From: a virus
IMG/VR virus record: IMGVR_UViG_3300005563_000088
Coordinates: 1-28,356 of that record
Direction: 5' to 3' (one strand)
DNA length: 28,356 bases
The position numbers and the translations under genes were made by a program. The notes below the pieces were generated by a model. The model was not told where the DNA came from. It saw only the letters and a list, made by a program, of their open reading frames with translations, and made no database searches. Positions within the stretch are counted from its first letter, which is position 1; each line of letters begins with the position of its first letter. This document shows positions 9,031-26,995 of this stretch, piece after piece.

Positions 9031-9218
9031 TGGCAACCCGCGATCCAAATATTATTAGTGAGATTCAGGTAAAAACTTCCGCTGGCACCGCCGTGGTGCA
9101 TGAATTGGCAGGAGATAAGGGCCCTGAATACAAGGTCAAGAACCCGGAAGCCCTTCCGGTGGCGTTTCTCTCCTCGGTCCTCGACCAGGCCCGTCAGATG
9201 GAAGAGAAAGGTGGATAA
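9030..9218 (+). CDS. Small hypothetical protein, 62 aa
   Basis: The ATG overlaps the previous stop by one base (TAATG) and the stop lies 8 nt inside the start of the large tail/neck gene. The product reads like a small globular protein with strands (EIQVKTSAGTAVVHELAG) and a C-terminal helix (PVAFLSSVLDQARQMEE). A structural accessory or chaperone for the next protein is possible from position only. Confidence 0.7.
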   Translation: MATRDPNIISEIQVKTSAGTAVVHELAGDKGPEYKVKNPEALPVAFLSSVLDQARQMEEKGG

Positions 9219-12200
9219 TCTCATAGAAAAAAGAGAATTCAATCAAGGCATGAATGCCGATGACTCCCTGACCAAACTGGAGCCAGGTGAGTACATGAAC
9301 GGCTTTAATTTCCGCGCCTGGACCTCAGAAACAGGTCGTGTCAGTGGCCTGCAGCCAATACCTGGCACGGTTAAACTGGCCTCTCCTCCTCAAAACCCTC
9401 CCGATGAACTGCAAACAGACTATGTCGGCATAGGTCAATGTGTTGACGAAGAAAGAAAATGGATAGTCTACTTCAATAGGTATGGGCTTGTTGGATTCAA
9501 CCATATCGCCGTGTATGATACGATTAATAACGTTGCCTATATGGCGTTGCGAGAGGATCAGGTAATCGGAGGTTTGGGCTGGGATGCTTCGACCTATATT
9601 CACTCCTCCTTTGTAATCAATGGCCTCTTATACTGGACAGACAACGTAGCGCCGCGTCGGATCAATCTCGATGCAGCAGTTAAGTTGAATAATCCGTCCT
9701 ACGTGACTAGCGTCGCTCCCTATATTTCGCCCATGAATCAGGCTGTCATATCCTGGATACGCCGACAACCGGGGTTGCCACCCTCTTTTATGAAGGTGAC
9801 CCAAACCACGCCTGTCATCAACGGGAGCCAGATAGCACTGGAGCCTTTCATGTTCTGCTATCGGTATATTTACCGAGACAATGAGGCCTCGACTCTTTCA
9901 GGGCGCTCGTTGCTTTGCCCGGAGAATGCAAACTTTGAGACGTACAACCGAATAGATATTTTGCTGCCATTGGGCGAACAAATTGATCAGGACGTTATCC
10001 AGATCGATCTCGTGGCACAGTTTGTCAATAGCGGAGACTTCTTCATTATCAATTCCTGGAAAAAGAGCGTTGCCGCCGACGCAGCAGCCATCACCGCACA
10101 CAATACTGGGACCGCGCTGACATTTCAGTTTTACAACAATCTGGCAGGGATATCCCTGGATAGCGCCTACACGGTAAAGATCGCCGATGCTACCCCTATA
10201 AAGGCTCAGACCATTGAGCGGGCAAAGAACCGTTCTTTTATGGGAGGATGCACTAATGGATATGATAGTCCTACGGCTACATCACTCGCTTTGACTTTGA
10301 TCACACAGAATTTCCCACCGGGGCCATCCGGATCAATCACGGGAGAATGGTGGTTCATGACCTGGCAGACATTTCCATTTGTAGGTCATTCCGCATACTT
10401 ATTGGTAACAACTACAGCCGTCGGTCCTGTTCCGCCATCGACATTTTATTATTACACCTGGAATTCTTCCGTTCCGCCATATCCTGCAAGCGTCAACGCA
10501 AGTGACCTCACATATAGAGGATCCAGTTTCGGGCAGGCTGCTGCAAATATAGGTGGAGCACCACCGACGCATATAAGCACCGCTGACCAGGGTATAGCAA
10601 GCACTATTCTTACCGGAGGCGGGACGCTGTCTGCAGTAGTAGGAAAATGCTTCAAAACAAATTCTTCCTATCAGTTTTCTGTCTCTTTCAAAGACAATTA
10701 TGGGAGAGAGACAGGGGTGGTAACCAATAACAATCTGAAGGTCATTATACCCAACACTGGTTTCGATGCCCTAAATTACACACCAGGCATTCAATGGGAT
10801 TTAAGTAATGCAGGGGCATTGACCGAAATACCTATTGATGCTTACTACATCAGCATCAATGTAACAAGATGTCTCCGGACAAGGTTTTTTATTCAGGGGC
10901 GTGGTGTAATGATATATGCAGACAAGGATAGCTCTGGGAATTATACATTTACAACTACTGCTTATTCCGATAATTTGGCCGGAGTTGCAGTCGATACGTC
11001 CACTCTTCAGTCGCAAGGCATGGCATATCTGTTGGCACAGGGTGACCTGCTGACGCTATACGTGAATGGTGCCTATTATTCCATGTCGATCATTGATCAA
11101 AGTGGAAAGTATGTTATCGGACAACTTACGAATGTGGGCACCCTGTCGGCTCAAATTGGCCTTTTTGAAATATATACCCCCTATAAAACGCAGGTAGATG
11201 AGCCGTACTTCGAAGTATCACAGATATTTCCCATTTTAAACCCCGGCACCAACTCCCGGCAATATAGCATTCTTAATGGCATCATAAATGGAGATGTCTT
11301 TCTATTTAAACGCTTTAATAATTCGGCGAACTACATTACCGAAGCGATGAATCCCAATGATAAATTTTACAAAATCTGGAACACGGATGCCGGGCGTCCA
11401 AATTTTGTAGATGGTATTGGGCAGGTATTTGATCAAAATGCGGTTTGCTTTAGCAATCCTTTGGTGCAAGGCAGTAGAATAAATGGCCTGTCAACGTTTG
11501 ATGCGCTGGATAAGGCGGATCTTCCGCTGGAGCTTGGAAGCATATCAAAACTTATTCTCACCAGTAAAATACAGAAGGAAGGCACAGTCATGCTGGCCTA
11601 TTGTAAATCTGAAACCGTCTCCCTGTACCTAGGAGAGGTGCAAGTGGCTGCTCCACAGGGAAATGCTTTCCTTGCAACCGATCAAAATGTAATAGGAACA
11701 ATATATCCCCTCAAAGGCTCCTTTGGAACTATCCACCCTGAGAGTGTCCGGCAATGGCGCGGCAACGTTTTCTCCTTCGATGCTTACAATGGCGCGGTCG
11801 TTCAGTACAGCGATAATGGGCTTGAGGCCATCAGCGCGTATAAGATGCGTACTTTCTGGCGCAGGTTTGCAGACAAGTTTGTCAACATGACTGCAGCTCA
11901 AATAATAGCGCTCGGCAGCAGGCCCTTTATCGTTGGCGGAATAGATCCATTCCACGGAGAGTATTTACTCTCTATACCCCAGCTGGAGCCGACCGTGCCA
12001 GCCGGAACACTCCCAGGGAATATTGTGGGAGTTCCTACCAATCTGTTCGACCCTTACGATGGAATGGCAAAGACCATGGTTTACAAGATTGAAAAGAACA
12101 GGTGGGTACCCGCCTACAACTATTATGCAGAATCTTTGGCCAACGTCAGCAATAAGTTGTATGCGGGAAAACTCGGAAGTCTATACCGGATGAACGATTC

Positions 12201-12606
12201 TACAGGTGGGTACAACCAGTTTTTCGGAGTGCAGACGCCATCTGTTGTTATGTTCCCCGCAAACATTTTGGATCATTCGCCGAAGCAACCAAAGGCTATA
12301 AACGTGGAGGCTGATCTTCAACCAGATGTATGCGTTCTGATGTCAGAATATCCTTATCAGCAGATTACGGACATACAGCCAGACGAATGGAATCCTAAGG
12401 AGGGTATTTTTTATCAATCCGTCCGACGGGATCGGCTAGATCCTTCATTTACTGATCCAAACCAGGCCTTGGTGGAAGGAGAGCAGTTGATAGGCAAAGT
12501 CATGATGATACAGTTGAATTTTCAACCTACACATCTTTTTCAATTAAAATATGTCAACGTGATATACGAACCGTTGACTGGGCATAAAACTATTGCATCA
12601 AAATAA
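9211..12606 (+). CDS. Large tail/neck structural protein (stabilization-protein type), 1,131 aa
   Basis: The frame is open from 9100, but that part is antiphase to the 62-aa gene. I start at the GTG at 9211, preceded by GGAAGAG and overlapping the previous stop by 8 nt. The N-terminus then reads EFNQGMNADDSLTKLEPGEY with NGFNFRAW and a later GxVSGLQPIPGT. This GMNxDxS...PGEYxxxxNxR pattern is the hallmark of the large beta-propeller-like tail-hub or stabilization proteins of crAss-like and other podoviruses. The long remainder is Tyr/Asn/Gly-rich and beta-structured (IVYFNRYGLVGFNHIAVYD, IMLNFQ-like strands near the end), without catalytic motifs. It follows the connector genes, as expected for a tail-associated component. 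Confidence 0.78.
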   Translation: MDNLIEKREFNQGMNADDSLTKLEPGEYMNGFNFRAWTSETGRVSGLQPIPGTVKLASPPQNPPDELQTDYVGIGQCVDEERKWIVYFNRYGLVGFNHIAVYDTINNVAYMALREDQVIGGLGWDASTYIHSSFVINGLLYWTDNVAPRRINLDAAVKLNNPSYVTSVAPYISPMNQAVISWIRRQPGLPPSFMKVTQTTPVINGSQIALEPFMFCYRYIYRDNEASTLSGRSLLCPENANFETYNRIDILLPLGEQIDQDVIQIDLVAQFVNSGDFFIINSWKKSVAADAAAITAHNTGTALTFQFYNNLAGISLDSAYTVKIADATPIKAQTIERAKNRSFMGGCTNGYDSPTATSLALTLITQNFPPGPSGSITGEWWFMTWQTFPFVGHSAYLLVTTTAVGPVPPSTFYYYTWNSSVPPYPASVNASDLTYRGSSFGQAAANIGGAPPTHISTADQGIASTILTGGGTLSAVVGKCFKTNSSYQFSVSFKDNYGRETGVVTNNNLKVIIPNTGFDALNYTPGIQWDLSNAGALTEIPIDAYYISINVTRCLRTRFFIQGRGVMIYADKDSSGNYTFTTTAYSDNLAGVAVDTSTLQSQGMAYLLAQGDLLTLYVNGAYYSMSIIDQSGKYVIGQLTNVGTLSAQIGLFEIYTPYKTQVDEPYFEVSQIFPILNPGTNSRQYSILNGIINGDVFLFKRFNNSANYITEAMNPNDKFYKIWNTDAGRPNFVDGIGQVFDQNAVCFSNPLVQGSRINGLSTFDALDKADLPLELGSISKLILTSKIQKEGTVMLAYCKSETVSLYLGEVQVAAPQGNAFLATDQNVIGTIYPLKGSFGTIHPESVRQWRGNVFSFDAYNGAVVQYSDNGLEAISAYKMRTFWRRFADKFVNMTAAQIIALGSRPFIVGGIDPFHGEYLLSIPQLEPTVPAGTLPGNIVGVPTNLFDPYDGMAKTMVYKIEKNRWVPAYNYYAESLANVSNKLYAGKLGSLYRMNDSTGGYNQFFGVQTPSVVMFPANILDHSPKQPKAINVEADLQPDVCVLMSEYPYQQITDIQPDEWNPKEGIFYQSVRRDRLDPSFTDPNQALVEGEQLIGKVMMIQLNFQPTHLFQLKYVNVIYEPLTGHKTIASK

Positions 12607-12617
12607 AATATTTGGTT

Positions 12618-13211
12618 ATGGGACTTTTAGACAGCATCGCAGGCGGATTGTTCGGAGCCTTTCAATTGAGTCAGGCCGGGAAAATCCATCCTCAGTACAC
12701 TCCATATCAGACCTCTCCATATGCGGAAAATGTATTGGAAAATGCCAAGAACGCCTACGGCGGACGGATGGCGGGAGCGACCGAACTGGAGCAGAATATT
12801 TTGACAAATCAAGCAAATGTAAACGCGAATGCTGATAGGACAGCCACAGATGGGTCCCAGGCTCTGGCTGTAAAGGCCGCCAATCAAGGGCAAACAAATG
12901 CAGCTTTTCGCAATCTTCAGACTCAGGAGGCTCAGCAGAAATATCAGCTGCTCAATAACCTTAATCTGGCAGATCAAACCATGATCAATGAAGGAGATAA
13001 AAAGTACCAGGATATGTTATACAAATACCAGATGGACGCGGGACAGCAGGCCGCACTTAGAAATGCTGGCATCCAAAATATTTTTGGAGCCGTAAACGGA
13101 TTGAGTGGTTCGGCCATGCAGTACAACATGATGAATGGCGGCGGCTCTGGAGGCGGTAGCGGCGGAACTAGCGGAGGCGGACTTATGGCAATGTTACCAT
13201 TCCTTTTATAA
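12618..13211 (+). CDS. Putative internal virion / DNA-ejection protein, 197 aa
   Basis: I start at the ATG at 12618; a TTG two codons upstream is less likely. The N-terminus GLLDSIAGGLFGAFQ is short, hydrophobic and glycine-rich, as in small ejection proteins that insert in membranes. The centre is Ala/Gln/Asn-rich and predicted helical (NAAFRNLQTQEAQQKYQLLN). Near the C-terminus is a Gly/Ser linker (GGGSGGGSGGTSGGG), then a hydrophobic end LMAMLPFLL. The neighbourhood (tail protein before, Gln-rich 521-aa protein and giant after) matches a block of ejected proteins. This is inference. Confidence 0.7.
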   Translation: MGLLDSIAGGLFGAFQLSQAGKIHPQYTPYQTSPYAENVLENAKNAYGGRMAGATELEQNILTNQANVNANADRTATDGSQALAVKAANQGQTNAAFRNLQTQEAQQKYQLLNNLNLADQTMINEGDKKYQDMLYKYQMDAGQQAALRNAGIQNIFGAVNGLSGSAMQYNMMNGGGSGGGSGGTSGGGLMAMLPFLL

Positions 13212-13220
13212 ACTCAGAAA

Positions 13221-14786
13221 ATGGCAAATGAAGGTTCGTGGGCGGTAGTGTTGCCCGATCAGACAGCTAGGAATACATCAATGATGCAGATGTTGTGGCA
13301 ACACAACATGCAGCAGCAACGTCTTGCTGCTATGCAGCAGCAGCGAGAATTGGCCAGGCAGGCAAAAGCCGCACAGTTTGTGGGACAAAACTTTAAGGAT
13401 GCCAATTATGCTACTGGCACAGCTGCTGACCCGATCATTAACAAGATGACCAGTGATGCCCGCGAGAAATTTGCCAGGCTTATACACGAGAATCCTAATA
13501 TGGATGAAGGAGATCTTGAATTGCAGATGCAGGGAGATCTGAGTAAAATATCTCAATATTCGGCCGCTATTAAGGCAGGTAGAAAAAACATCGAAGATTC
13601 CTTACAGCATTACCAGCAACTGCCTGGCATAGATGTGGGTAATTTAAAGAATGCCGCGATTAATAGAATGCTTTACCAGGGAGGAAAAAGTGTTGTTGAT
13701 GACCCTACTAAGATAGACCTAGGAAGAAACTATCTGGACGAAGAGTTGGGCACCAACCCCGACCATTATGTAATAGGAGATGTTCCGTTGACGAAAGCTA
13801 TTGAGGCTTATAAACCGAAAAAGGGGGGCGACACAACTATTAATGAGCATGCCGGTGTCACAACTGAAAAAAAGTTTACCGATGAATACTATCCATGGCA
13901 GTCAGAAGTGAAAGATGCAAAGGGAAATGTTACCGGGTTACAGGTCAATTACGAACCTGCCTCTTTAAACGGCCAACCCATTATCGACCCGGAGACAAGG
14001 CAACCCATGAAAGTTGTGACTGACCAGACGCTGAAACAACTTTCAGGAACAGGAGTCGCCGCCAATATAAAGAGAGATACGGATGCATTTATAAAAGATC
14101 ATGGGTATGATCCCGCACAATTCCCGGCAGGAAGTCAAGCTTACCAGTCACTTGCTAAGCATGTACTATATAATAAACTGTCGGAACTAACGCCATCTGA
14201 ATTCAGGAAGGAAGCAAAGAAAACGAATGCCACCTTTGTCGACAAAATGCAGGCCGGGCTTGTTGATGCTTTGGGAAGGACGCTCAATAAGTCTCAAAAG
14301 GAAAAGGAAGAGAAATTGCTTAATGGGAACTTTGCCAAAATACGCAGGGCTGTCAACATGGAGCCAGAGGCGTTGGCGGGAGGAGTTCCATATAGAGATC
14401 CCACTACAGGAAAACAATTCATCGATGTGACAAGTTTTGTGGGTGGGTTTAAAACCGATGCTGATAAAAAAGCTACACAGTATGATCCTGGCTACAAGCA
14501 GGTACAGCATCTTCTTATTGATCCAACAACTCCCGGCAAGTTATACACAATAGAGGGCACTGATGGTCATTTACAAGAATATGACCCCGAAAGTATTGAC
14601 GCACTGCAGCTTCGCTACGGAACGTCCAACGGACACGATAATCTGGCCGATGTAAAAAAGGTTATCCAAAAGATTCCTATTAAACAAAACGTACAGGCTG
14701 CCAGACAATTACGAGCAGATATGGAATTGCAGAGGCGTCAACAGCAACAGAAAGCTCAGGAGTCAATATTAAACTTTAACCAATGA
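13221..14786 (+). CDS. Putative internal virion protein, 521 aa
   Basis: The first about 55 residues are strongly helical and Gln/Met-rich (MMQMLWQHNMQQQRLAAMQQ, then QRELARQAKAAQ), likely a coiled coil. The rest mixes helices (EDSLQHYQQLPG) and mobile-looking Lys-rich segments, ending in another Gln-rich helix (QRRQQQQKAQESILNFNQ). No enzyme motif is seen. It sits between the GGLFG protein and the giant, so an ejected or inner-capsid role is likely. Its stop overlaps the next start as ATGA. Confidence 0.72.
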   Translation: MANEGSWAVVLPDQTARNTSMMQMLWQHNMQQQRLAAMQQQRELARQAKAAQFVGQNFKDANYATGTAADPIINKMTSDAREKFARLIHENPNMDEGDLELQMQGDLSKISQYSAAIKAGRKNIEDSLQHYQQLPGIDVGNLKNAAINRMLYQGGKSVVDDPTKIDLGRNYLDEELGTNPDHYVIGDVPLTKAIEAYKPKKGGDTTINEHAGVTTEKKFTDEYYPWQSEVKDAKGNVTGLQVNYEPASLNGQPIIDPETRQPMKVVTDQTLKQLSGTGVAANIKRDTDAFIKDHGYDPAQFPAGSQAYQSLAKHVLYNKLSELTPSEFRKEAKKTNATFVDKMQAGLVDALGRTLNKSQKEKEEKLLNGNFAKIRRAVNMEPEALAGGVPYRDPTTGKQFIDVTSFVGGFKTDADKKATQYDPGYKQVQHLLIDPTTPGKLYTIEGTDGHLQEYDPESIDALQLRYGTSNGHDNLADVKKVIQKIPIKQNVQAARQLRADMELQRRQQQQKAQESILNFNQ

Positions 14787-15022
14787 GGTGGCTAGAAAAA
14801 TTCAAGCTTATCCTTGATAAAAACCCGGATATGTCAGATGCGGAATTATTCCGCGCCTTCCCTGAATTAAAAGGAGAACAGCGACTACTCACTTATGCAC
14901 TCCTGTACTGGCGTCATGGGATTATTGTGGATGAATTCAGGAAGGATTCTATTTGGTTACGATGTAAAAAGGCAATTATAGATGGCTTTAGACGATTCTA
15001 TTACGGAGTTAGAGCAGCCTGA
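14783..15022 (+). CDS. Small stand-alone FPEL-module protein, 79 aa
   Basis: Residues 14-29 read NPDMSDAELFRAFPEL, the same pattern as NPSASDDELLKKFPEL at residues 41-56 of the giant protein encoded next. Similar spacing follows to an Ala-rich Tyr-containing helix (TYALLYW versus DAAFSYL). The N-terminal FxxxLxxNPxxSDxELxxxFPEL unit looks like a small helical module that has been duplicated. The ORF starts at an ATGA overlap and overlaps the giant start by 41 nt. Its function is unknown; a partner or competitor for the same binding surface is one possibility. Confidence 0.7.
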   Translation: MRWLEKFKLILDKNPDMSDAELFRAFPELKGEQRLLTYALLYWRHGIIVDEFRKDSIWLRCKKAIIDGFRRFYYGVRAA

Positions 15023-18000
15023 AGTCGCTGATGAGCAGGTTGAAGGTCCTGGGCCAAAACCCAAGACCTGGATAGATAACTTTGAAGAGTACACTTCGAT
15101 GAACCCCTCCGCGTCCGATGATGAGTTACTAAAAAAATTCCCGGAGCTTGGCAAGGATACTAAGAGAATAGACGCGGCATTTTCGTATTTACATGCCCTT
15201 AAAAAGGGAATGTCGCCCGAGCAGGCGCAGAAGCTATTCCCTGACATCGTAGGCCCAACGGGGCCTTACATCGATCCTAAAAATAGAGTTCCAATACAAG
15301 GTAATCCGGATGTACTGGATATTCCAAAGATCAATACAGCTGAGTATGATAAGAAAGTTCAACAATATCCTGCTTCAGAAAGCACGGCCATGCCAGCTAT
15401 AAAAAATCAAATTCAAGCGCAGCAGCAGGCGGATGATAGGGAAAAGAAAATACAAGCAAAGTATCAACCCATGATGGATAGGGCCATGTCGGATATCAAC
15501 GCCAACAGAAGTCATTTTGTAGAAAACAAGCGGCCGGCGCTTGATTCTCATCCGGATGCCCCAGACAGCTATTATGAAGTGCCCAAAATGTCTATCATTG
15601 ATGACTATCTTAAAAAAACCGTGCCGGATGCTGACGACAGATATTACCTTCGGAACAGGATTATCAGCGAGTTCCACGCCCAAAAGGACGCCTATACCAC
15701 ACAGAAGATAGCCGATAAAAAGATAAACGAACTGCCAGCCGTGCAACAGGCCCGGCAGCATTTATATGGGACGAACATAGCGGCTCCCCAAGATATGAGC
15801 AAAGTCCTTGCCACCGCCAAGCAAATAGATCCTGATCTTAATAATAAGGTCAATAACATCTATCGGGAGGCCGTAAAGACAAATGAGGACATCAAAAATG
15901 AGTCTACCAGGACTTTGATGAATAATAGCACTTCGCTGGAATACGATGAGAATGGTACCCTTAAAAAGGTTAACCCCCTGAACGCGAACACGCCTTTCCA
16001 TGATCAAATAACCGGGGCGGCAAAGGGGTTGCAGGGGTTTTTTAAATTCAGCGGACAAACCGGGCAGATGGCCAGCGGCATCTTAAAATTCTTTGGTGCT
16101 AAAGAGTCTGGCTATGACCTTCAAAAGAACGCGGATGACTTTTTAGCCAAGAACACCTTTCCCGAAGGCAAACAGACTCCTACTGAATTTTTGGCGGGGG
16201 AAGCGTTGCCTATGGTATTGCAGGGTGAAGCTATGGGCCGCTTTGCCCGTATCGCCGGAGCCCCCGCATTCAAGGCGCTGTCCGGGGCGGCTGCCAGAGG
16301 AATTATCGGAAAGCTCGGAGAAGGCGCTTTGGGGGGTATAGCATTAGCGCCGATCAATAGTGCATTGATTTCCCACGATTATTATACGCAGTTGGTAAGA
16401 GCCGGAGAAACCCCCGAGATGGCGCATGCGAAGGCAGAGCACGTCTTTGACAAGAATTTGGTAACGGACATGGCGATCAGCCCCGTACAGTTCGGGATCA
16501 TGAACGCACCGGTCAATGGCGCCATTGCAAAAGTCCTTTTGAAATACGGGGTGCCCCCCGCCATTGCCGGGGGGCACTTTATGGCCCAGGATTACTTTCA
16601 GCAGAAAGAGAACAACCCGGCGCTGACGGCCTGGAAGTACGCCACCTCCGATGAAGGTCTGAAGACGGGCATCACCGGCGCTCTCACCGGTATTCTTCAG
16701 CATTACACCATCGGTAAGATGAATGACTGGCAGAATAACAAGAATGTGAAGGATGCCTTTTCGTTTGGCCGGAAGGATGTAACTGCCGATAACGCCGCCC
16801 TGCCCAATAATAACGTCATAGCCAATACTGTCCTGAATGCCTACGAGATGAAGGACGGACCCCGCCGGGCAGATGAATTGAAAGGTTTGGTGAATGAACT
16901 TCATGTGAAAGGAGTGTATAACGATGCCGAGGCGAAGCGCATAACCGGCATCATCGACGACGTAGCCGCTGTGAAGGGACAGGTCCCTAAAATGGGTACG
17001 TCCGCTCAGCGCATGGCGGTGTTCAATGAACTGCTGAACAAGCAGAATTACAAAAATCAGCTTCCGGCGGCCGGGGATCAATCCGTGGTGGATCTGCTGG
17101 AAGGCAAGATGAAGGAGTCTGACCAGCGGATACAGAAGATCATGAATGAGGAAGAGCCCTTGTACTTCATTAACGGCATCGAGACCAGTAAGGAGCAGCT
17201 GATGGATTTTGTCAAACAGCACCCGGAAGAGGCTCAATCCAAGGCTGTCAAGATCGATATCATTGGAGACGACGAAACCAAACAAGCTATACAGGATGCG
17301 AAGAACGAGTTTATGCAATCGGCCGCAGCGGAGCAAACAGGCGAGAATTCTTCGACAGATCAAACAGTTCAGCCAGAAGCTCAGACCAAAGTTACCGAAG
17401 TCCGGCACGCCATTACCCCCGAAGACGAGCGCGGAGTGACCAGCGGCCCCACGGATGTTAAGCTAAGCGAGGAAGGAAGGGACCAGGCAGATACACTGGC
17501 TGAATCTGTCAAAGCCAAAGGAGTAACCAAGGTTATAAGTTCAGGTCTACCAAGAGCAGCTGAAACCGGACAGATCGTAGCGGATAAATTGGGTGTTCCC
17601 CATGTTACCAAGCCGGAATTAAAGTCTTGGGACATTGGGGAATTCGACCAGACCAAGGATACTGACTTTAAGAAGGCGGAGAAGTACTTTGTGATGCATC
17701 CAGATGCCACTGAATTTGAAGGAAAGAAAATAGGGGAGTCGTTCAACCAATACAAGGACCGGGTTATAGGAGCCAGGGAGAAGATTGAGAACGAGGCTGG
17801 TGATCATACGCTGGTGGTAAATCATGGTGGCAATATCAACGTATGGGATGCCTACCAGAAAAATGGGAAGGCGTGGAATGAACAAACAGCCAAAGATTAC
17901 CTGAATAGCCAGGATGTTCCGCCCGCAGAGGTCAGAACCGGGCCGGAAGCTACTCCGTCTGAAGAAAGGCCCCTGCCTGGTCGGACGCCAGAGTTTTCAC

Positions 18001-21000
18001 AATTCTATAACAGATTTAAGGATGAAATACCGATGGTCAACGATAGTTCGTTAGATTACCGGTGGGATACTAAGATGGACCAAAAGACCCGGGAAGGAGC
18101 TATTAAAGACATTGAGAAAGGCAAAGAGAGCAAGCGGGCTAAGGATTTCTTGGACGAACTACAGCGGCAATATGACGCAGGAACCTTAGAATATACCCGT
18201 GGAAGAGGGAACCATGTAGAAAAATTTGGCATTCCTGTCGAAGAATGGAGTAAATTACATACTGAAGCGGAACGTTCTGTCGTTGAGGAGGCAGAATCCG
18301 GTTCTATATCTGATGACGACTACGCTGAATGGCTCAAAAAAGAATCTCAAAACTGGAAACCTCATGAATCAGGCATCGACTTCGAAACAGCAGGACAAAC
18401 TTCAGGAAACAGTGAAGCAGCAGCTGCCGAAAGTGAACATGTACAACCGGTTCGTGAAGTCGATGAAAGCCAAACCAGCAGTGGTAAGCGTTCTGGAAAA
18501 GATGAACCACGAACAACAACATCACGCGATGATGAGCCTTTACAACAGCCTCGTGGGAAGAAAGGCAATGAAACTCTTCAAGACACATCCGCCAAAGATG
18601 TAGAGGAGCAAGACCTTATGAAGGACCTGGCCGCCCGGCTGGGTAAGAAAATTTCAGATAAGATGGATCGCATGACAGTAGACGTACAGGGCAAAAATAT
18701 GCCTGTCGACGAATACCTGTCCAAGGCAAAGGCCGTGCTTTCCCAATTGTTCCCAGACCATACTATTCGCTCCTACAATTCGAAGAAAGAATATACGGAA
18801 GCTGAAAAACGGCCGGCGGGATCTGCTGGGGTATATGACGCGAACGGTAAGTACATCGCTTTCAATATGGAGGCTATTCAAAAGGCAGGGGCGGAAAATA
18901 CTATCTTCCATGAGGTTATCCATCCCATCGTACGAGAAGCATTGCAGGCCCGCCCGGGCGCTGTAGACAATGCCTATTCCAAACTAGTGGAATTGAAAGA
19001 CGTAAAGGGCATGGAGGCGGTCTGGGAACATGAGAATCATTATCGGGATCGTGGTTTGGATACGATGAAGGTAGAAGCCATTACTGAATTCCTTTCTCAT
19101 GTGGCGGACGGGAAGATTGATCCAGCAAACTTCACCACCTCCATACGTACCAAATTCGTTGATGTGGTGAACCGGATCTTCAAAGCCCTTGGCATAAAAC
19201 GGACCATTTCCACTGCGCAAGATATAAAGCGGCTGGCAGACTCCATCAAAACGGCCTTCGAAAAGGCAGACGCATCTGCTGTGAAGGAGGCTCTTGGTAA
19301 AAAGACGATCGGCGCTCCGGATGAAAAGTATGACGCCATGATCGGCCAGCCCAGCGGGGACCCGATGGAGGACTTCGTACGGGAGAAACTGGACGAAAGT
19401 AAAGAATCCTCTGTTAAGAAAGCGCTCATCGAAGTGGGGGGTATGGATGACGCCAAGGCTCAGGCTCTCATTGACAAGGTGCGGGCGGAGCGCACGGATA
19501 CCCCAGAAGAGATAATTCAAAAGGCCATGGCTATAGGACAGGCAAAGACAAAATCTGCTGCCAACCAAATCGCACCCAAGCAGGTAGCCGTCGGCATGAA
19601 GCCTAGTTTGGCCAAAACACTCCGCCGCTGGTATTTTGATGGCGTGGACGAGGTCAGCGACGTAAAAAGCATCATACGGAAGAATAAGGGCAAGGAAGAG
19701 TTTGAGATCGACAAAGTATACCATGCCACCCGCAAACTCGTTAGCGACTGGAATAAGGTGCCGAAGGCGAAACAGATGGCCTTCATATTGGGCATAGAAA
19801 AGCCCGAACTTTTGGCCAATCAGTCCCAGGAGATGAAAGACATTGCCGCCGGTTACCGGCAGCGGCTTGACAAGACCTTTGAAACGATCAAAAGCGTCAT
19901 GCCGGATCTCAATTTTATCGAGGACTACTTCCCGCATTTCTGGGAAAAACCAGAACAAGCCCGTAATTTCTTTGCCAGCACTCTGGCAAAGGCGCCGATG
20001 GAAGGGAGTAAAGGGTTCGCCAAAAAGCGGTTCTTTGAAACCATCGTATCGGGACTGAGTGAAGGATATAAATTATCCACCACCAACCCGGAAGAAATGG
20101 TGCGACTAGCAGAGGCCAATTCCTGGAAGTTTAAAACCGCGCACGATATTTTAAAGGATATGACGGCACAAGGATTTGTAAAGATGTTGCCGAGGGGGGA
20201 ACAGCCAGCTGGATGGAAGACAGTTGATGATCCAATATTTATGAATATGGCCATGAGGGCCAAATCGTATAAAACTGTTAAAAAGTTAGGAGAGGACTTA
20301 TTTGGCAATGATGTAAAAACCAAGCCTGAAACCAAAATGGCCGCCCTTTACATGCCTGAAGAAGTAGCAAAACTGATGAACGACTATCTGAGCAAGGGAC
20401 TGGGCGGGCCGGCCAAAACGGTCGTACAGCAATATAATAACATAAAGAACCTCTTCCAGCTAGGTGTAGGGTTCTTTCACTTTGGGACTACTACGACGGA
20501 TGCCATTGTTACCGGCATGACCAATGGAATACAGAAACTTTCCGCCGGCAATCCACGGGGACTTTTGGACCTAGCCACTTTTGGAAATCTGCCTGCCACT
20601 GTTATCCGAGGTTTTAAGGCCCGGGCCGACTGGAACGCCGGGAAGATCACCGCCGATACACAGGCGCTGATGGACGCCAACGCCAAGGTGGGCCGGCAAA
20701 AGATGTACTCTTTGGATGCGAAATACAACATGATGAAAGCCTTCGGGCAACTTCGGGCGGACGGGGATTTCAAGCACCTTCCTAAAGCAATCTGGAATGC
20801 TGTACTATACCTGCCAGAGTCCATCAACAAACCTTTGATGGAGCACTGGGTACCTTCTTTGAAAGTAGGGGGATATCTCCGCTCCTTGGATGCAGAGATA
20901 CAGAGCCGGAAAAACATGACCCCGGCCGAGCTTCAGACCGCCAAGCAAAAGATTTGGGACTCAATGGATGACAGGCTGGGCCAGGTAGTCTACGACAATA

Positions 21001-21995
21001 TTTTCGTAAGGAAGTCGTTGAAAGACCTCGCATTTATGGCCGTTCGCTCAGCGGGGTGGACAGGCGGTACTATCCGGGCAGTGTCCGGTGGGATTGCCGA
21101 ACTGCCCCGCAGCGGCCAGCGACTGGTAAGGGGGCAGGGCCTAAGTCAGCGTACTGCCTATTTGATCGGTCTGCCCTTGACGGTTGGGCTCATGGGCGCC
21201 TTCTATCAATATCTCATGACAGGTGAAGGCCCTCAGGAAACCAAAGATTACTTCTTTCCTAAGGATGGAACTAAGAGTCCTGACGGAACCGACCACCGGG
21301 TAGACTTTCCGTCTTACATGAAGGACATCCTATCTTATAGCAAGAGTCCTGTACAAACCCTGTTGCATAAGACCTCCCCCATTATCAACGACGTGGTAGA
21401 ACTCTATCAGAACAAAGATTTCTACGGCGAGAAGATCTACAACGGGGATGATCCGATATATCGGAAGGGATTGGATGTGCTGCAGCATGAGTTTGAAACA
21501 ATGGAGCCGTTCTCTTTCAGGAAGAATCCATACGACGAATCGCCTTTTATAAACCAGCTGACAACTCGCCCGGGCCTCGAACAGAAGTTCGGCATCATGC
21601 CTGCGCCAAAGGAAAGGGAGAGGAACGCTACGCAGAACATGATCATGAAAGCCTACGGTGATCAGATGAAGCATGAAGAGGAAGGTAAAACCCATGCTGA
21701 GATGGAGCAGGTGATCGCTCGTCGACATCTCCGGGAGTTTATTTTCAATGGAGGTGATTGGAAAGACGCATCTCAGGAATGGAAAGATAAGGCAGGGCTT
21801 AAACCCCAGTCCGTATCCAAGTTCATCAATGATTCAAAAATGGATCCTTATGAGCGCTACTACAAGCAACTGCATGCAGAAACAAAGATTAAATTATACC
21901 GGCAAATGAGCGATGAGGAAAAAGAAAAATACGGTAAATGGATACCCATAGCACTAAGAGAGAAGGCCAATCAACCTGAAACAACAGAAGAATGA
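14982..21995 (+). CDS. Giant polyvalent virion protein with histidine phosphatase and zincin domains, 2,337 aa
   Basis: The order of regions is as follows. An FPEL module lies at residues 34-85. A long helical region follows, with hydrophobic Gly/Ala-rich stretches around 350-465, and YFINGIETSKEQ near residue 730. The histidine phosphatase domain spans about 803-975: RH at 808-809, SGLPRAAETGQIVA, and the second His948 in VNHGGNINV. A low-complexity linker covers about 1120-1205. A zincin-type HEVIH (H1310, E1311, H1314) follows, with a downstream acidic helix EAITEF (1365-1370). The C-terminal half includes membrane-like YLIGLPLTVGLMGAFYQYL (2060-2078) and an LPD38-like end (VDFPSYMKDI, LLHKTSPI, NGDDPIYRKG). 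The pattern is of phage polyvalent proteins ejected with DNA. Catalytic residues look intact; substrates are unknown. Confidence 0.82.
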   Translation: MALDDSITELEQPEVADEQVEGPGPKPKTWIDNFEEYTSMNPSASDDELLKKFPELGKDTKRIDAAFSYLHALKKGMSPEQAQKLFPDIVGPTGPYIDPKNRVPIQGNPDVLDIPKINTAEYDKKVQQYPASESTAMPAIKNQIQAQQQADDREKKIQAKYQPMMDRAMSDINANRSHFVENKRPALDSHPDAPDSYYEVPKMSIIDDYLKKTVPDADDRYYLRNRIISEFHAQKDAYTTQKIADKKINELPAVQQARQHLYGTNIAAPQDMSKVLATAKQIDPDLNNKVNNIYREAVKTNEDIKNESTRTLMNNSTSLEYDENGTLKKVNPLNANTPFHDQITGAAKGLQGFFKFSGQTGQMASGILKFFGAKESGYDLQKNADDFLAKNTFPEGKQTPTEFLAGEALPMVLQGEAMGRFARIAGAPAFKALSGAAARGIIGKLGEGALGGIALAPINSALISHDYYTQLVRAGETPEMAHAKAEHVFDKNLVTDMAISPVQFGIMNAPVNGAIAKVLLKYGVPPAIAGGHFMAQDYFQQKENNPALTAWKYATSDEGLKTGITGALTGILQHYTIGKMNDWQNNKNVKDAFSFGRKDVTADNAALPNNNVIANTVLNAYEMKDGPRRADELKGLVNELHVKGVYNDAEAKRITGIIDDVAAVKGQVPKMGTSAQRMAVFNELLNKQNYKNQLPAAGDQSVVDLLEGKMKESDQRIQKIMNEEEPLYFINGIETSKEQLMDFVKQHPEEAQSKAVKIDIIGDDETKQAIQDAKNEFMQSAAAEQTGENSSTDQTVQPEAQTKVTEVRHAITPEDERGVTSGPTDVKLSEEGRDQADTLAESVKAKGVTKVISSGLPRAAETGQIVADKLGVPHVTKPELKSWDIGEFDQTKDTDFKKAEKYFVMHPDATEFEGKKIGESFNQYKDRVIGAREKIENEAGDHTLVVNHGGNINVWDAYQKNGKAWNEQTAKDYLNSQDVPPAEVRTGPEATPSEERPLPGRTPEFSQFYNRFKDEIPMVNDSSLDYRWDTKMDQKTREGAIKDIEKGKESKRAKDFLDELQRQYDAGTLEYTRGRGNHVEKFGIPVEEWSKLHTEAERSVVEEAESGSISDDDYAEWLKKESQNWKPHESGIDFETAGQTSGNSEAAAAESEHVQPVREVDESQTSSGKRSGKDEPRTTTSRDDEPLQQPRGKKGNETLQDTSAKDVEEQDLMKDLAARLGKKISDKMDRMTVDVQGKNMPVDEYLSKAKAVLSQLFPDHTIRSYNSKKEYTEAEKRPAGSAGVYDANGKYIAFNMEAIQKAGAENTIFHEVIHPIVREALQARPGAVDNAYSKLVELKDVKGMEAVWEHENHYRDRGLDTMKVEAITEFLSHVADGKIDPANFTTSIRTKFVDVVNRIFKALGIKRTISTAQDIKRLADSIKTAFEKADASAVKEALGKKTIGAPDEKYDAMIGQPSGDPMEDFVREKLDESKESSVKKALIEVGGMDDAKAQALIDKVRAERTDTPEEIIQKAMAIGQAKTKSAANQIAPKQVAVGMKPSLAKTLRRWYFDGVDEVSDVKSIIRKNKGKEEFEIDKVYHATRKLVSDWNKVPKAKQMAFILGIEKPELLANQSQEMKDIAAGYRQRLDKTFETIKSVMPDLNFIEDYFPHFWEKPEQARNFFASTLAKAPMEGSKGFAKKRFFETIVSGLSEGYKLSTTNPEEMVRLAEANSWKFKTAHDILKDMTAQGFVKMLPRGEQPAGWKTVDDPIFMNMAMRAKSYKTVKKLGEDLFGNDVKTKPETKMAALYMPEEVAKLMNDYLSKGLGGPAKTVVQQYNNIKNLFQLGVGFFHFGTTTTDAIVTGMTNGIQKLSAGNPRGLLDLATFGNLPATVIRGFKARADWNAGKITADTQALMDANAKVGRQKMYSLDAKYNMMKAFGQLRADGDFKHLPKAIWNAVLYLPESINKPLMEHWVPSLKVGGYLRSLDAEIQSRKNMTPAELQTAKQKIWDSMDDRLGQVVYDNIFVRKSLKDLAFMAVRSAGWTGGTIRAVSGGIAELPRSGQRLVRGQGLSQRTAYLIGLPLTVGLMGAFYQYLMTGEGPQETKDYFFPKDGTKSPDGTDHRVDFPSYMKDILSYSKSPVQTLLHKTSPIINDVVELYQNKDFYGEKIYNGDDPIYRKGLDVLQHEFETMEPFSFRKNPYDESPFINQLTTRPGLEQKFGIMPAPKERERNATQNMIMKAYGDQMKHEEEGKTHAEMEQVIARRHLREFIFNGGDWKDASQEWKDKAGLKPQSVSKFINDSKMDPYERYYKQLHAETKIKLYRQMSDEEKEKYGKWIPIALREKANQPETTEE
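16551..16577 (+). other. Perfect GC-rich hairpin inside the giant gene
   Basis: GTGCCCCCCG (16551-16560) and CGGGGGGCAC (16568-16577) are exact inverted copies around a 7-nt loop (CCATTGC), followed by TTT. The encoded peptide is the ordinary GVPPAIAGGH. Such a stem in RNA would be very stable and could pause the ribosome or polymerase; it lacks a U-run long enough for a standard terminator. Confidence 0.5.
18364..18603 (+). CDS. Possible overprinted ORF within the giant gene linker, 79 aa
   Basis: In the +1 frame relative to the giant, an ATG at 18364, preceded by GGAAA, opens 79 sense codons. The product looks globular and helical: KLQETVKQQLPKVNMYNRFV, then AKPAVVSVLEKMNHEQQHHA and MMSLYNSLVGRKAMKLFK. 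Its codon choice looks more like neighbouring genes than that of the giant frame, which here encodes a Ser/Glu/Gly-rich linker. Either a real nested gene or a segment whose frame was shifted by compensating indels would explain it; chance is also possible. Confidence 0.35.
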   Translation: MNQASTSKQQDKLQETVKQQLPKVNMYNRFVKSMKAKPAVVSVLEKMNHEQQHHAMMSLYNSLVGRKAMKLFKTHPPKM

Positions 21996-22633
21996 ACTAT
22001 ACCTCTGACACCTTCAAAAATTGCGCCTTCAACCCTTATGAGGTATTCCCTTTTAAGGCATACCCGCAGCTGAAGAAGATGGTTGTAAAGGACCTGTACA
22101 ACCAGGAAGATGACGACGTGCGGGTAAAAATGCCGGAGGATAAGCTGGTGCGGTACATTATCGCTTTGTATGACCCTAAGAGTCCTCTTATAAAGGGAGA
22201 GCAGAACCTGGTCCGCAGGAAAGAGATAGCTGCTGAAATCGCCGGGTTTGACATGGAAAAGGACGACGCCGCACTGGCTGTCCTGTATGAGTACAAATAC
22301 GACCATATAGTCCTGACCGTACAGAACTTCCTGAAGGACTTTGTTCGTACAATGGAGTGGGCCATGCTGGTCAGCCTGGAGCAAACATTTTGGGAATTCC
22401 AGACGAGGCTTATGAAGCCGCTGGAGGCCGACAAGGACAAGGATCTGATGAAGGCGATGGAGACAAAGACCCAGCTTTCAGAAGATATTCAAAATATCTA
22501 CGATAAATACAAAACAGCCCTCAGCAAGTTTTACGGGGATGAGGAGGTGCTGATCGAAGCGGCGACGAAGATACGTCGCTTCACCCCGGAAGGCGTGGCA
22601 AAATTTGCCAGGAGCCATGTTCAAAAAAATTAA
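21992..22633 (+). CDS. Hypothetical protein upstream of terminase, 213 aa
   Basis: The ATG overlaps the giant stop (ATGA) and the stop lies 17 nt inside the TerL gene. The product is rich in charged helices: KAYPQLKKMVVKDLYN, VLYEYKYDHIVLTVQNFLKD, EWAMLVSLEQTFWEFQTRLM and KFYGDEEVLIEAATKIRR. Position directly before TerL invites a small-terminase or packaging-accessory role, but I see no DNA-binding helix-turn-helix that would prove it. Confidence 0.72.
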   Translation: MNYTSDTFKNCAFNPYEVFPFKAYPQLKKMVVKDLYNQEDDDVRVKMPEDKLVRYIIALYDPKSPLIKGEQNLVRRKEIAAEIAGFDMEKDDAALAVLYEYKYDHIVLTVQNFLKDFVRTMEWAMLVSLEQTFWEFQTRLMKPLEADKDKDLMKAMETKTQLSEDIQNIYDKYKTALSKFYGDEEVLIEAATKIRRFTPEGVAKFARSHVQKN

Positions 22634-24623
22634 AGGCGGGACGCTGGAGCGTATCTGTGATCGCTTCGACTGCTGGATACCTCCTGTTGGGTATGGCCTT
22701 AATGCAATCACCGGAAATCTCGAGCAGACCGATATTATTAAACGCTCTTCCCGGAAATCCGAGCAATTCTGGCAACGAGAAGAGATGCCGGAATGGTACA
22801 AACTGAGACGCCGGGGGGAGATTCGCCGTCAACGCGATGACCCAGACTATTTTGATCAAGAGTGTGAAGCGTACAGAGCTCAGGAGTGGAAGAGGCGGCT
22901 GTGCGGAGTCTGGTTCCTGAACAATGGGAACTATACGTATATAACCGGCACACATTACTTGTATCTCCAGTGCTGGAAGTTCCAGGGGAAGCATATGGAA
23001 TATCGTGACCCTAATAGGAAGCTATTTTACGTCTGGGACTATTGCGTTGAGGACCCAAACTGCTTGGGCCTGATCGAGATTACCAAAAGAAAAGACGGGA
23101 AGACCGCTCGGGCAGGTTGCATCCTCTACGAATATATTTCCCGCACTTTCAGCCGGCATGGAGGTATACAATCCAAAACGGATGACGATGCAGAGGAGGT
23201 TTTTCAAAAGGCTGTCATTGAGCCTTGGCAAAAACTGCCAGATTTTTTCCGACCCATTTATGACACAGGTATGGGTAGCTCGCCGGCGGAGATACTTAGA
23301 TTCTATCAACCATCCCTGCGGGGTAAACAAGCTGAGGACCTTGAATACAGGGAAGAGGCGCTGGAATCATTTATTGACTTCCAATCCAGGAAAGTGGAGG
23401 CGTATGACGGGCCTGAGCTTCATCGATACGTTTCTGATGAAGCCGGTAAGATGAAGGACGTAAGTATAAGGGAGCGCCACAATACCGTTATGATGTGCTC
23501 CGAGGTCGATGCTGTATTTGTCGGGAAACATCTCTATACCACCACTGTTGAAGAAATGGATAGCGGGGGCGGTGAGTTTCTACGCCTGGTTCAGGACAGC
23601 AATTTCGATGAGCGGAATGCAAACGGCAGGACAAAGACCGGGCTATATGTCTATTTTCTTCCTGCGTATGAAACAATGTTCTATGATAAATACGGTATGC
23701 CGAATGTGGAAGAGGGTAAAAAGTATCACCTCAACGCCAGGGCCGCGCTGGTCAATGATGAAAAGAACCTTCAGTCCTACATCCGGAAGAACCCCTTCAC
23801 GTTGGAGGAGTGCTTCACTACTGACAGCGATAAGTGTTTGTACAACGCCTATAAGCTCACGGAGCGCCAGAAAGCAATTCAGTTCAATGCCAGTGATAAT
23901 CAATTTGGCAATTTCATATGGAAAGATGGTATCAAAGACTCGGAGGTGGTTTGGGAACCCAATCCAAATGGCCGGTGGGAAATATCCTGGATGCCGGAAG
24001 ATAAGGACCGTAACAGGGTCCATCGAGATGGCAACATTCTCACGCCCTATAACACCCATATGTTTATTTCAGGGTGTGACACTTACGATCACAATACCAC
24101 AGAGGATTCCCGAAATTCTAAGGCGGCCAGCTTCGTAAAATGCCGGACCCGCTCCGCTGGCGATGATGCTATTTCCAAGAAGTATATCTGCAAGTATCAC
24201 TATCGGCCTCCTATGGCTGAAATGGTGTATGAGGATCTTGTTATGCAGAGTTTCTTCTTTGGCTGCCAGATGCTACCCGAGTCCAACAAGCCGGGTGTTA
24301 TCAATTATTTCATTCGCAGGGGCTATGGGAATTTCCTGGTGCATGTCCCAGGCTATAAAGAGCCAGGCATTCCATCCACCCAGGATAATAAACGGGAAGC
24401 CTCCCTTATGGTGGAATCCTACATCGAGCAGAATATCCACAAAATGGACTTCCTGCTGCAAATCATTCAATTATTACAATTCGATATTAAGAAAACCGAA
24501 AAGTTCGACCTGGTAATGGCCATGCTGTGGACCGAATATGCCGATAATTACCGCTACTTCGAAACTGAAGATGAAAATGATGACCTATACGAGCTTGACG
24601 ACCTCATGCCTCAATACCAATAA
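22617..24623 (+). CDS. terL: Terminase large subunit
   Basis: This 668-aa packaging motor has an ATPase domain followed by a nuclease domain. A variant Walker A KRKDGKTA lies at residues 157-164 after IEIT, the Walker B YVSDEAGK has D274 and E275, and the coupling motif is TTTVEEM (308-314). The nuclease part shows FISGCDTYDH with D488 as likely first metal ligand and KFDLVMAML (D631) as a later acidic residue. It would cut and translocate genome DNA through the portal. I start at the ATG at 22617; the TTG four codons upstream is the alternative. AGGAG is only three bases before the ATG. The gene lies directly before the portal. Confidence 0.92.
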   Translation: MFKKIKGGTLERICDRFDCWIPPVGYGLNAITGNLEQTDIIKRSSRKSEQFWQREEMPEWYKLRRRGEIRRQRDDPDYFDQECEAYRAQEWKRRLCGVWFLNNGNYTYITGTHYLYLQCWKFQGKHMEYRDPNRKLFYVWDYCVEDPNCLGLIEITKRKDGKTARAGCILYEYISRTFSRHGGIQSKTDDDAEEVFQKAVIEPWQKLPDFFRPIYDTGMGSSPAEILRFYQPSLRGKQAEDLEYREEALESFIDFQSRKVEAYDGPELHRYVSDEAGKMKDVSIRERHNTVMMCSEVDAVFVGKHLYTTTVEEMDSGGGEFLRLVQDSNFDERNANGRTKTGLYVYFLPAYETMFYDKYGMPNVEEGKKYHLNARAALVNDEKNLQSYIRKNPFTLEECFTTDSDKCLYNAYKLTERQKAIQFNASDNQFGNFIWKDGIKDSEVVWEPNPNGRWEISWMPEDKDRNRVHRDGNILTPYNTHMFISGCDTYDHNTTEDSRNSKAASFVKCRTRSAGDDAISKKYICKYHYRPPMAEMVYEDLVMQSFFFGCQMLPESNKPGVINYFIRRGYGNFLVHVPGYKEPGIPSTQDNKREASLMVESYIEQNIHKMDFLLQIIQLLQFDIKKTEKFDLVMAMLWTEYADNYRYFETEDENDDLYELDDLMPQYQ

Positions 24624-24634
24624 AAACAAACACA

Positions 24635-26995
24635 ATGGCAACTGAAACCGCAGTAGTACAGACCGCTTACAATTTCCCCAGTCACGACCTCCCTGCTGAC
24701 GAGAAGGGCGCCGATTGGTGCATGCAATATCTTCGGGCTATGTACACCGAAGCCACTACCAGGCAGTATGCAAAGATCTTTTTTGCAGCCAGGGACCAGT
24801 ATAAAGAGCTGAGGGAGTATGCACTTAGCAAGCAGAGTGTCCTGCCATTTCGAAAGTGGCTTACGGGCAGTGACAGCCAGGACAAAACCTGGGTAAACAT
24901 AAACTGGAGCATCCCCACCATTGGATCGAAGTACCGGAATATACTGGTGAATAAATTGCTATCCCGGGAGTTTAATATAACCTGTACTCCCGTTGATCCG
25001 GAAGCGGTCGATGAGACAGCCAAATGGTTTTCCGGGATGAAGGCGAAAATGAAACTGCGTGAAATGGCCCAGAAAGTGAACCCGGAATTACTGCAGACCA
25101 GTGCACTCACAAAACGCGGAGACGACCCCGAAGATATGGATGACTTCCAAATGCGTACACAGCTGGGGCTAAAGACTAAATTGGCCATGGATGCCGAAAT
25201 GGGGGTACAGGTGGTATTCCAGCAGAATAACATATACGAGGAAAGGAAAATGGTTGTCGAGGACCTGGTAGACTGGGGGGTTGGAATATACAAAGACGGG
25301 GTGGACGAGAACGACATGGTCACCATCGAGCACGTCGACGCCATGAAGTTCGTCTGCTCCTATTGCCGGCGTGGAGATTTCAAAGACATGACATGGGGAG
25401 GACAATTAAAATATTACACCCTTTCCGATATTGCTCCTTATTTCAGCCCAGCGGAATTGAAAGATATGGCCGAAAATGTGGCCGGAAAGAATGGTAATCC
25501 CCGGACCGTTCCGTACAATTTTGCAGCTGCTGACTATGATAAGTTTCGAGTCCTCTGCCTGGATGGAGAGTGGCTGACCTACAACTACGAGTATTACAAG
25601 CGATCGTACGACAGTAATAACAACTATGGCTTCCGCAAGAAAAGACCGGATAAAAGAGACGGTAAGGCAATGACAGAAGTGGCGGGATCTGCTAAGCCAA
25701 AATTCCAGCGGGATACCTATGATGACGTATATAAGGGGATCTGGATTGTTGATACAAACTACGTCTTTAAATACGGAAGGGCCACGGATCAAAAGAGAAA
25801 AAAGAGCTCCATAAAAAAGACATGCCTTTCTTTCCACGTATGCGCTCCGGATTTCTACGAAATGAACGCCCTGGGTGTCATGGAGCGGCTGAAACCATTT
25901 ATTGATAAATATTGCCAGCTCCACTACAAGATTGAGAACTTCGTCAACAAGTGGATCCCGTATATCATCAAGATCGATATCTCCGCCCTGGAAAATATCC
26001 CGCTAGGAAAGGGGGGTAAAAAACTGACACCACGCCAGGTTCTTGACATGCTGGCGCAAACCCACATGCTGGTTACTCGGCAAAAGAACGCAATCTCGGG
26101 TATGCCGGAGAGAAATGAGCCCGTCAGCGTTGAGGGAACCCAGATGGCGCAGGAGATAAACGTCCTGGATCAACAGCTGGAGAGAACCATCCAGGGGATG
26201 AGGGATGTAACCGGTCTAAATGAGGTAGTTGATGGTACCGGCCCTGCTGATAGGACCAATGTTCCAGCTCAACGACAGGCCGAACAGGGGAGCAATAATG
26301 CCATCAACCATTTCGCCAAGGCTGACTCTCGGCTGCTGGAAAGGGTGGCGGAAAGCTCTCTCCTTCGTCTACAGAGGGTTTTGAGGAGAAAGCCGGTGTC
26401 TGGCTACGTTCACGCACTGGGATCGAATTACATCAAATTTGTGCAGGTGTCCCCCGATATTTCCCTGCATGAGTACGCCATCGCCCTACAGGATAGGCCA
26501 GATAGTGAATTGAAACAGTTGATCCTGCAGCAGGTGGCTATAAAAGATCAACAGGGCCTTATCCAGCCGGAGGATTATTTTATGATCATGAACATGACAA
26601 ATCTGAAGGAGGTGGAACTGAAGTTGATCTATTCTTCCAAGAAGCGCATCGAACAGCAACAACAGCAAGCGCAAGCCAACCAGCAGCAGACCATTCAGGG
26701 TCAAATGCAGGCCGCACAAACAGCTGAGCAGGAGAAACAAAATACTATCCGTATTAAGGGAGAAGAAGATCGTAAGACAGAAGATGTTAAAGGTAGCTGG
26801 CTGGTTAAGGCTGCTGAAACAAAAGTTACGGGAAGTGTCGATCAGCAGACAGCAAAAATGATCGCGGATATTATATTGCAGGCTATGGGCCAAGAGCATG
26901 AAAAGGCGATGGCTACAGCGCCCCAGCCCCCGGCTGAAGGTCCTCAACCAACTCCTTCCGGTCCGCAGCCGGTTCCTGCTTCTTTGCAGGATTAG
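24635..26995 (+). CDS. Portal protein
   Basis: This 786-aa protein lies directly after TerL. It has an N-terminal helical region, a WVNINWSIPTIGSKYRN segment (residues 88-104), a central beta-rich part and the characteristic late helix with GMRDVTGLNEVVDG around 521-534. That last element resembles the MRDITGxNExxDG sequence of portals of Bacteroidetes podovirus-like phages. The C-terminus is a Gln-rich coiled coil (EQQQQQAQANQQQTIQGQMQ) with a Pro-rich tail (QPPAEGPQPTPSGPQ). It forms the ring through which DNA passes. Its final 83 nt overlap the antisense cysteine-rich gene. Confidence 0.9.
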   Translation: MATETAVVQTAYNFPSHDLPADEKGADWCMQYLRAMYTEATTRQYAKIFFAARDQYKELREYALSKQSVLPFRKWLTGSDSQDKTWVNINWSIPTIGSKYRNILVNKLLSREFNITCTPVDPEAVDETAKWFSGMKAKMKLREMAQKVNPELLQTSALTKRGDDPEDMDDFQMRTQLGLKTKLAMDAEMGVQVVFQQNNIYEERKMVVEDLVDWGVGIYKDGVDENDMVTIEHVDAMKFVCSYCRRGDFKDMTWGGQLKYYTLSDIAPYFSPAELKDMAENVAGKNGNPRTVPYNFAAADYDKFRVLCLDGEWLTYNYEYYKRSYDSNNNYGFRKKRPDKRDGKAMTEVAGSAKPKFQRDTYDDVYKGIWIVDTNYVFKYGRATDQKRKKSSIKKTCLSFHVCAPDFYEMNALGVMERLKPFIDKYCQLHYKIENFVNKWIPYIIKIDISALENIPLGKGGKKLTPRQVLDMLAQTHMLVTRQKNAISGMPERNEPVSVEGTQMAQEINVLDQQLERTIQGMRDVTGLNEVVDGTGPADRTNVPAQRQAEQGSNNAINHFAKADSRLLERVAESSLLRLQRVLRRKPVSGYVHALGSNYIKFVQVSPDISLHEYAIALQDRPDSELKQLILQQVAIKDQQGLIQPEDYFMIMNMTNLKEVELKLIYSSKKRIEQQQQQAQANQQQTIQGQMQAAQTAEQEKQNTIRIKGEEDRKTEDVKGSWLVKAAETKVTGSVDQQTAKMIADIILQAMGQEHEKAMATAPQPPAEGPQPTPSGPQPVPASLQD

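Follow-up and report, generated by a model that had tools for sequence, protein, structure and literature searches.

What would a histidine phosphatase do inside a giant phage protein that also carries a metallopeptidase-like domain, and is it still an active enzyme? The question is raised by a virus record of 28,356 bases, called here the window, in which an earlier note had described a virion protein of 2,337 residues combining both domains. The histidine phosphatase is a real, well-formed and recurrent cargo, previously unlisted, of a known class, the polyvalent proteins. The open reading frame is indeed single and uninterrupted at the length described, and it is surrounded by the following genes.

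9100..12606, + strand: virion structural protein (phrog_14478), a syntenic marker
12612..14786, + strand: two structural-module genes (199 and 521 aa) immediately 5' of the giant, arranged as in relatives
14982..21995, + strand: giant polyvalent protein, 2,337 aa (uninterrupted ORF; synteny with the giants of relatives)
21992..22633, + strand: 213-aa gene separating the giant and the terminase
22605..24623, + strand: terminase large subunit (phrog_6681, E=8e-75)
24635..26995, + strand: portal protein (phrog_6547, E=9e-79)

A second virion structural gene near the giant matches phrog_13977. The terminase is similar to those of Bacteroidota podophages (Flavobacterium elemo, Cellulophaga, Maribacter Panino, Tenacibaculum Gundel), and the window phage is probably a podovirus with a Bacteroidota host. 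Beyond the portal lies a Cpn10/GroES gene (window:27419-27712, - strand; Pfam E=3e-12), and a 289-aa protein (window:6051-6920, + strand) has a second, weak GroES-like N-terminus. Chaperonin genes are also found in several relatives. The left part of the window encodes a serine resolvase-type recombinase (window:3496-4275, - strand; PF00239, E=1.6e-31) and a DUF1643 protein (window:148-609, + strand; E=5.7e-39).

The structural module ends with a very long protein in related podophages too:

elemo (Elemovirus) gp18: 3,694 aa
Gundel gp74: 2,482 aa, placed two genes ahead of the terminase like the window giant
Callevirus phi38:1 gp101: 1,691 aa
Baltivirus phi13:2 gp127: 1,990 aa
Panino giant: 1,829 aa
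MW202828 giant: 3,859 aa

In closer IMG/VR relatives, giants of 2,563-2,931 aa occupy the corresponding position. Several syntenic giants are labelled "structural protein" in their annotation (elemo, Gundel, phi38:1 and phi13:2 are among the syntenic phages); the text of the Gundel paper gives no spectra. Because of its syntenic position, the window giant is very probably a virion protein.

Two disparate domains, the histidine phosphatase and a zincin-like one, are joined in one polypeptide that lies in a neighbourhood of phage structural genes. Judged from its sequence, the giant is a phage-type polyvalent protein. Iyer et al. (2017, PMC5512222) predict that such proteins enter the host by injection along with the DNA, and propose that zincin-like peptidases process them. 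The cargo differs among relatives. For instance, the HExxH domain is preceded by DUF3293 in elemo and by a weak GNAT-like stretch in Gundel, DUF7178 is found in the giants of G003 and G006, and a phosphatase-bearing contig, L130, has a GNAT-like domain and DUF7178. In the G007 giant (L115:99-8837), a stretch past the HExxH domain resembles ART-PolyVal/DUF3990, which is ADP-ribosyltransferase-like, just under the cut-offs. A literature search covering the main texts of open-access papers returned no paper joining "polyvalent protein" with "histidine phosphatase".

The two ends of the giant form modules of their own:

14982..17381, + strand: N-terminal module (residues 1-800), Gly/Ala-rich, with weakly hydrophobic stretches
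19635..21947, + strand: reusable C-terminal module (residues 1552-2322, ~770 aa), predicted to be alpha-helical

Residues 36-89 are similar to the N-terminus of the giant in L123, another phosphatase-bearing contig (43% identity, E about 1e-9). Membrane-like segments had been noticed in the protein; two are present, both weak (mean hydropathy 1.31-1.39 over 19 residues). The C-terminal module is met again in L123 and in L130-L141, 23-47% identical and in many cases encoded as a protein by itself (~900 aa). It also forms the C-terminus of other giants and occurs separately from the phosphatase. Its proposed likeness to LPD38 (PF18857) found little backing in the window: the protein gave no Pfam match even at E<=1, a search of the window's own record found none (the controls gave no match either), and a profile comparison of the module with LPD38-bearing C-termini gave no match. 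The likeness survives weakly in homologous C-terminal modules, 2 of 12 at E=0.033, and LPD38 is above the cut-off in the relatives G006, G007 and G009. Searches with the module gave nothing convincing in PHROG and no sequence match in the PDB. The AlphaFold model of the zincin and C-terminal module together is of low confidence (mean 59.9), with fold matches at a TM of about 0.3. Many of its viral fold matches are named large polyvalent protein, which is a hint only.

Between these modules, and past the phosphatase, lies the metallopeptidase-like domain:

18654..19301, + strand: zincin-like metallopeptidase domain (residues 1225-1440), by hhalign to seven other giants
18909..18923, + strand: HEVIH zinc-binding motif (residues 1310-1314)
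19074..19076, + strand: E1365, candidate third zinc ligand by alignment, invariant in alignment A12

From composition, 0.06 HExxH motifs would be expected. Residues 1225-1440 were compared with a profile of the HExxH domains that occur in similar surroundings in the giants of G003, G006, G007, G009, elemo, Gundel and MW202828. The match is strong (hhalign P=96%, E=1.4e-9), with nine other window segments and five shuffles all under 1%, and the region also matches the G009 giant by BLASTP (E=7e-7). The HExxH domain of the earlier note is thus supported by its motif and by homology to syntenic giants. E1365 aligns to a Glu of the following helix, a helix assigned with low confidence. AlphaFold gives a pLDDT of ~40 here, with a consistent order of helices and strands and metal-site geometry of low confidence, and a PDB sequence search with the domain gave no match. 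The HExxH domain of L123 fits the profile less well (P=18.5%). L122 and L125, two further phosphatase-bearing contigs, lack HExxH, so that the two domains are not obligate partners.

The zincin-like domain most likely cleaves the giant and releases its parts, as proposed for polyvalent metallopeptidases. It could instead be an effector directed against host proteins, an alternative named in PMC5512222. Its recurring place in the middle of the giants, between cargo and C-terminal module, fits self-processing at least equally, and we hold the effector role to be rather doubtful.

The phosphatase and its active site lie upstream of the zincin-like domain:

17388..17951, + strand: histidine phosphatase domain (residues 803-990), by Pfam, AlphaFold (AF2) and fold match
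17403..17408, + strand: catalytic R808-H809, invariant in all aligned non-permuted phage copies
17424..17426, + strand: D815, in place of the canonical pocket Asn
17553..17555, + strand: R858, second catalytic Arg
17625..17627, + strand: S882, in place of the canonical proton-donor Glu (ungapped alignment to PhoE and CobC)
17823..17825, + strand: H948, second catalytic His

The domain search and the structural model that the earlier note had called for both reveal a phosphatase core at about residues 803-990. PF00300 (His_Phos_1) matches residues 807-954 with E=1.5e-28 and 100 bits against a cut-off of 21.7. The AF2 model of residues 797-992, built from four phage sequences, reaches a pLDDT of 89.2 and a pTM of 0.86. 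Its PDB fold matches (VIA) include phosphoserine phosphatase 4ij6 (Z 20.7, rmsd 2.3, 177 aligned) and PhoE 1h2e (Z 20.6, rmsd 2.5, 178 aligned), and the top Foldseek PDB match is 9mmh (E=4e-11). The domain has the alpha/beta/alpha fold of the branch-1 histidine phosphatase superfamily, in agreement with PF00300, and carries a phage-specific C-terminal extension, W[ND]E..A.DYL. It falls outside the CobC, PhoE and PGM subfamilies, as the best NCBIfam model (TIGR03162) scores 70 bits against a cut-off of 162.9 and the donor Glu is replaced. It also falls outside SixA (TIGR00249, 17.4 bits against 74.5), which is not among the PDB fold matches listed.

The catalytic motifs had been described as intact. 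This is true of the four core residues R808, H809, R858 and H948, read directly from the sequence, which correspond to the R-H-R-H pocket common to the whole superfamily (PMC12051542). It is not true of the donor Glu and the pocket Asn. In the relatives, the donor position is occupied by Ser (L123) or Thr (L122, L125), and in the subclade formed by these three and the window the RHG motif has become RHA. L130 and L135 retain RHGETxxN and the donor Glu; the canonical site therefore exists in the wider phage family, and the window subclade has departed from it. With the Glu and the Asn both replaced, activity may be altered or lost.

A pseudo-phosphatase would have retained the fold with no turnover, either to bind some phosphorylated ligand or to serve structurally as a spacer, and the Ser or Thr at the donor position together with the change of pocket Asn to Asp in all four subclade members agrees with this. 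Yet R808, H809, R858 and H948 are invariant though the copies are only about 50-60% identical to that of the window, the canonical set is complete in L130 and L135, the Glu included, and donor residues differ among active families (PMC12051542). We regard a domain without turnover as unlikely, and an active phosphatase is the reading followed below.

This histidine phosphatase fold acts mostly on phosphomonoesters. As the fold resembles PhoE, phosphoserine phosphatase and CobC, a small metabolite or nucleotide is favoured over a phosphoprotein. With S882 in place of the Glu and D815 in place of the Asn, the remodelled site points to a substrate that has a good leaving group, or else to a proton donor that has moved, possibly to D815; naming D815 is a guess. 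By chemical reasoning, the absence of the donor Glu would be tolerable with phosphoramidate substrates, which would suit an action on host proteins (phosphohistidine or phosphoserine) like that of SixA and PGAM5, whose substrates are phosphohistidine proteins (PMC12934123). Such a target is improbable, as the fold neighbours PhoE, PSP and CobC are small-molecule phosphatases and the SixA model of NCBIfam fits weakly (E=0.003). A further proposal, the idea of the earlier note, is that a host defence system is the target and that the phosphatase would destroy its signal, a nucleotide or a cyclic-nucleotide derivative. Early injection would be suitable for this, and action on nucleotide signals has been proposed for other polyvalent-protein domains (PMC5512222). 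Neither a connection to a defence gene nor a sequence feature for nucleotide binding was seen, however, and many such signals are cyclic phosphodiesters, outside the usual range of the fold. A defence signal is a possible target, not favoured over other phosphorylated substrates, and as a specific explanation it is very doubtful.

The phosphatase module is not confined to the window. When viral contigs were scanned with the domain, it turned up in L122 (a contig of 70,898 bases), L123 (38,599) and then L125 (72,437), with 51-59% identity in the scan and 50-57% as otherwise compared. It sits within a giant of 1,971 aa in L122 and of 1,812 aa in L125. In L123 the giant is in two pieces of 745 and 1,533 aa with three ORFs between them, and the 1,533-aa protein has the phosphatase at its start, then HELLH and the C-terminal module as in the window. 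These ORFs (177, 366 and 225 aa; L123:10-9365) lie between the N-terminal module and the phosphatase, as a genuine split or an assembly effect. In L130 and L135, the phosphatase is at the end of a separate 1,130-aa protein (Pfam 2e-33 and 1e-26). There (L130:2170-12394, L135:3942-12382), separate genes encode the N-terminal module with the phosphatase, a 422-aa protein and the C-terminal module protein. L130, L131 and L136 are one phage; with it counted once and the window included, the phosphatase is carried by at least six distinct phages. From these gene arrangements, fusion and fission of the polyvalent protein seem frequent. The earlier note's view of the combination as unusual holds for the polyvalent-protein literature searched, in which no such domain is described, and not for the phages, in which it recurs.

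Thirty terminase relatives, searched as complete records, gave no match to PF00300. About 85,000 prokaryote genomes were scanned twice; these scans, which use short patterns and detect near relatives only, gave no close relative and a single distant bacterial enzyme (L142, 28%). L001, the sister of L125 in the terminase tree (support 100), has a homologous C-terminus (30% over 878 aa) and lacks the phosphatase, which is therefore dispensable and readily gained or lost. Searched at full length, the giant had no match among viral contigs, and in the GenBank phage collection only its phosphatase domain was matched. Three matches from that collection (L119-L121) were rejected as phage copies, as they resemble ordinary stand-alone bacterial enzymes and are apparent contamination. 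Module swapping as read from trees was also dropped, the small phosphatase and terminase trees being without clear conflict.

An apparently circularly permuted form of the phosphatase was seen in two other records. The domain starts past the first strand, and the RHG(E/A)T strand has moved to the C-terminal end. In L127 (IMGVR_UViG_3300047444_000783; L127:7820-20359) it is part of a 4,179-aa polyvalent protein, which also has an Eco57I methylase and a SNF2 helicase, with the strand at residues ~941-955. In L128 (IMGVR_UViG_3300001848_000543; L128:9983-10618) it is a stand-alone protein of 211 aa whose last residues form the strand. The two are 39% identical in alignment. The literature search found no paper joining "histidine phosphatase" with "circularly permuted".

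An assembly chimera, suggested by the uncultivated origin of the contig and the apparent bacterial contaminants met in the phage collection, is refuted in practice because the same fusion recurs at the corresponding place in independent contigs from other metagenomes, and the GC of the domain is like that of the rest.

Taken together, the preferred explanation is a giant that would be carried in the virion and ejected from it together with the DNA. Its C-terminal module would be the constant part, probably serving packaging or ejection, and the middle would hold swappable enzyme cargo. Once the zincin-like domain had cleaved the giant, the phosphatase would dephosphorylate a host molecule via phospho-H809 early in infection. 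We hold this explanation as a whole, with self-processing and an active phosphatase, to be moderately likely. A narrower version is unlikely: a Bacteroidota phage lineage injecting a phosphatase with a rebuilt site, in which an Asp is the donor, against one specific phosphorylated signal of the host during the first minutes of infection, after release by the metallopeptidase. If the broader explanation is true, a phosphatase joins the catalogue of enzymes delivered by phages with their DNA. The phage group has cultured relatives among Flavobacterium, Cellulophaga and Tenacibaculum podophages. With a domain of ~190 residues and a conserved but remodelled site across several phages, the substrate and role are directly testable.

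Compared with known systems, Elemovirus gp18, Gundel gp74, phi38:1 gp101 and phi13:2 gp127 share the gene position of the window giant and, in some, an HExxH domain. They differ by the absence of the histidine phosphatase and by their cargo (DUF3293, GNAT-like or unrecognised), and their sequences have little in common with that of the window giant. N4 virion RNA polymerase and the crassvirus cargo proteins (PMC10172136) are also very large packaged proteins, delivered with the DNA according to the literature, whereas no RNA polymerase domain was detected in the window giant. With the branch-1 superfamily (PhoE 1h2e, phosphoserine phosphatase 4ij5/4ij6, CobC 3hjg/6e4b), the window domain shares the fold and the R-H-R-H phosphate pocket. 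In contrast, its subclade has Ser or Thr for the donor Glu, Asp for the pocket Asn and RHA for RHG, and the domain has an additional conserved C-terminal motif and is fused into a giant phage protein. The polyvalent proteins of PMC5512222 differ in that a phosphatase domain is unmentioned in the main text of that paper (0 matches for "phosphatase"). Like the window giant, these phage proteins are very long, are encoded in the structural region, and combine disparate enzymatic domains with a zincin-like metallopeptidase, an LPD-type C-terminus being found in relatives.
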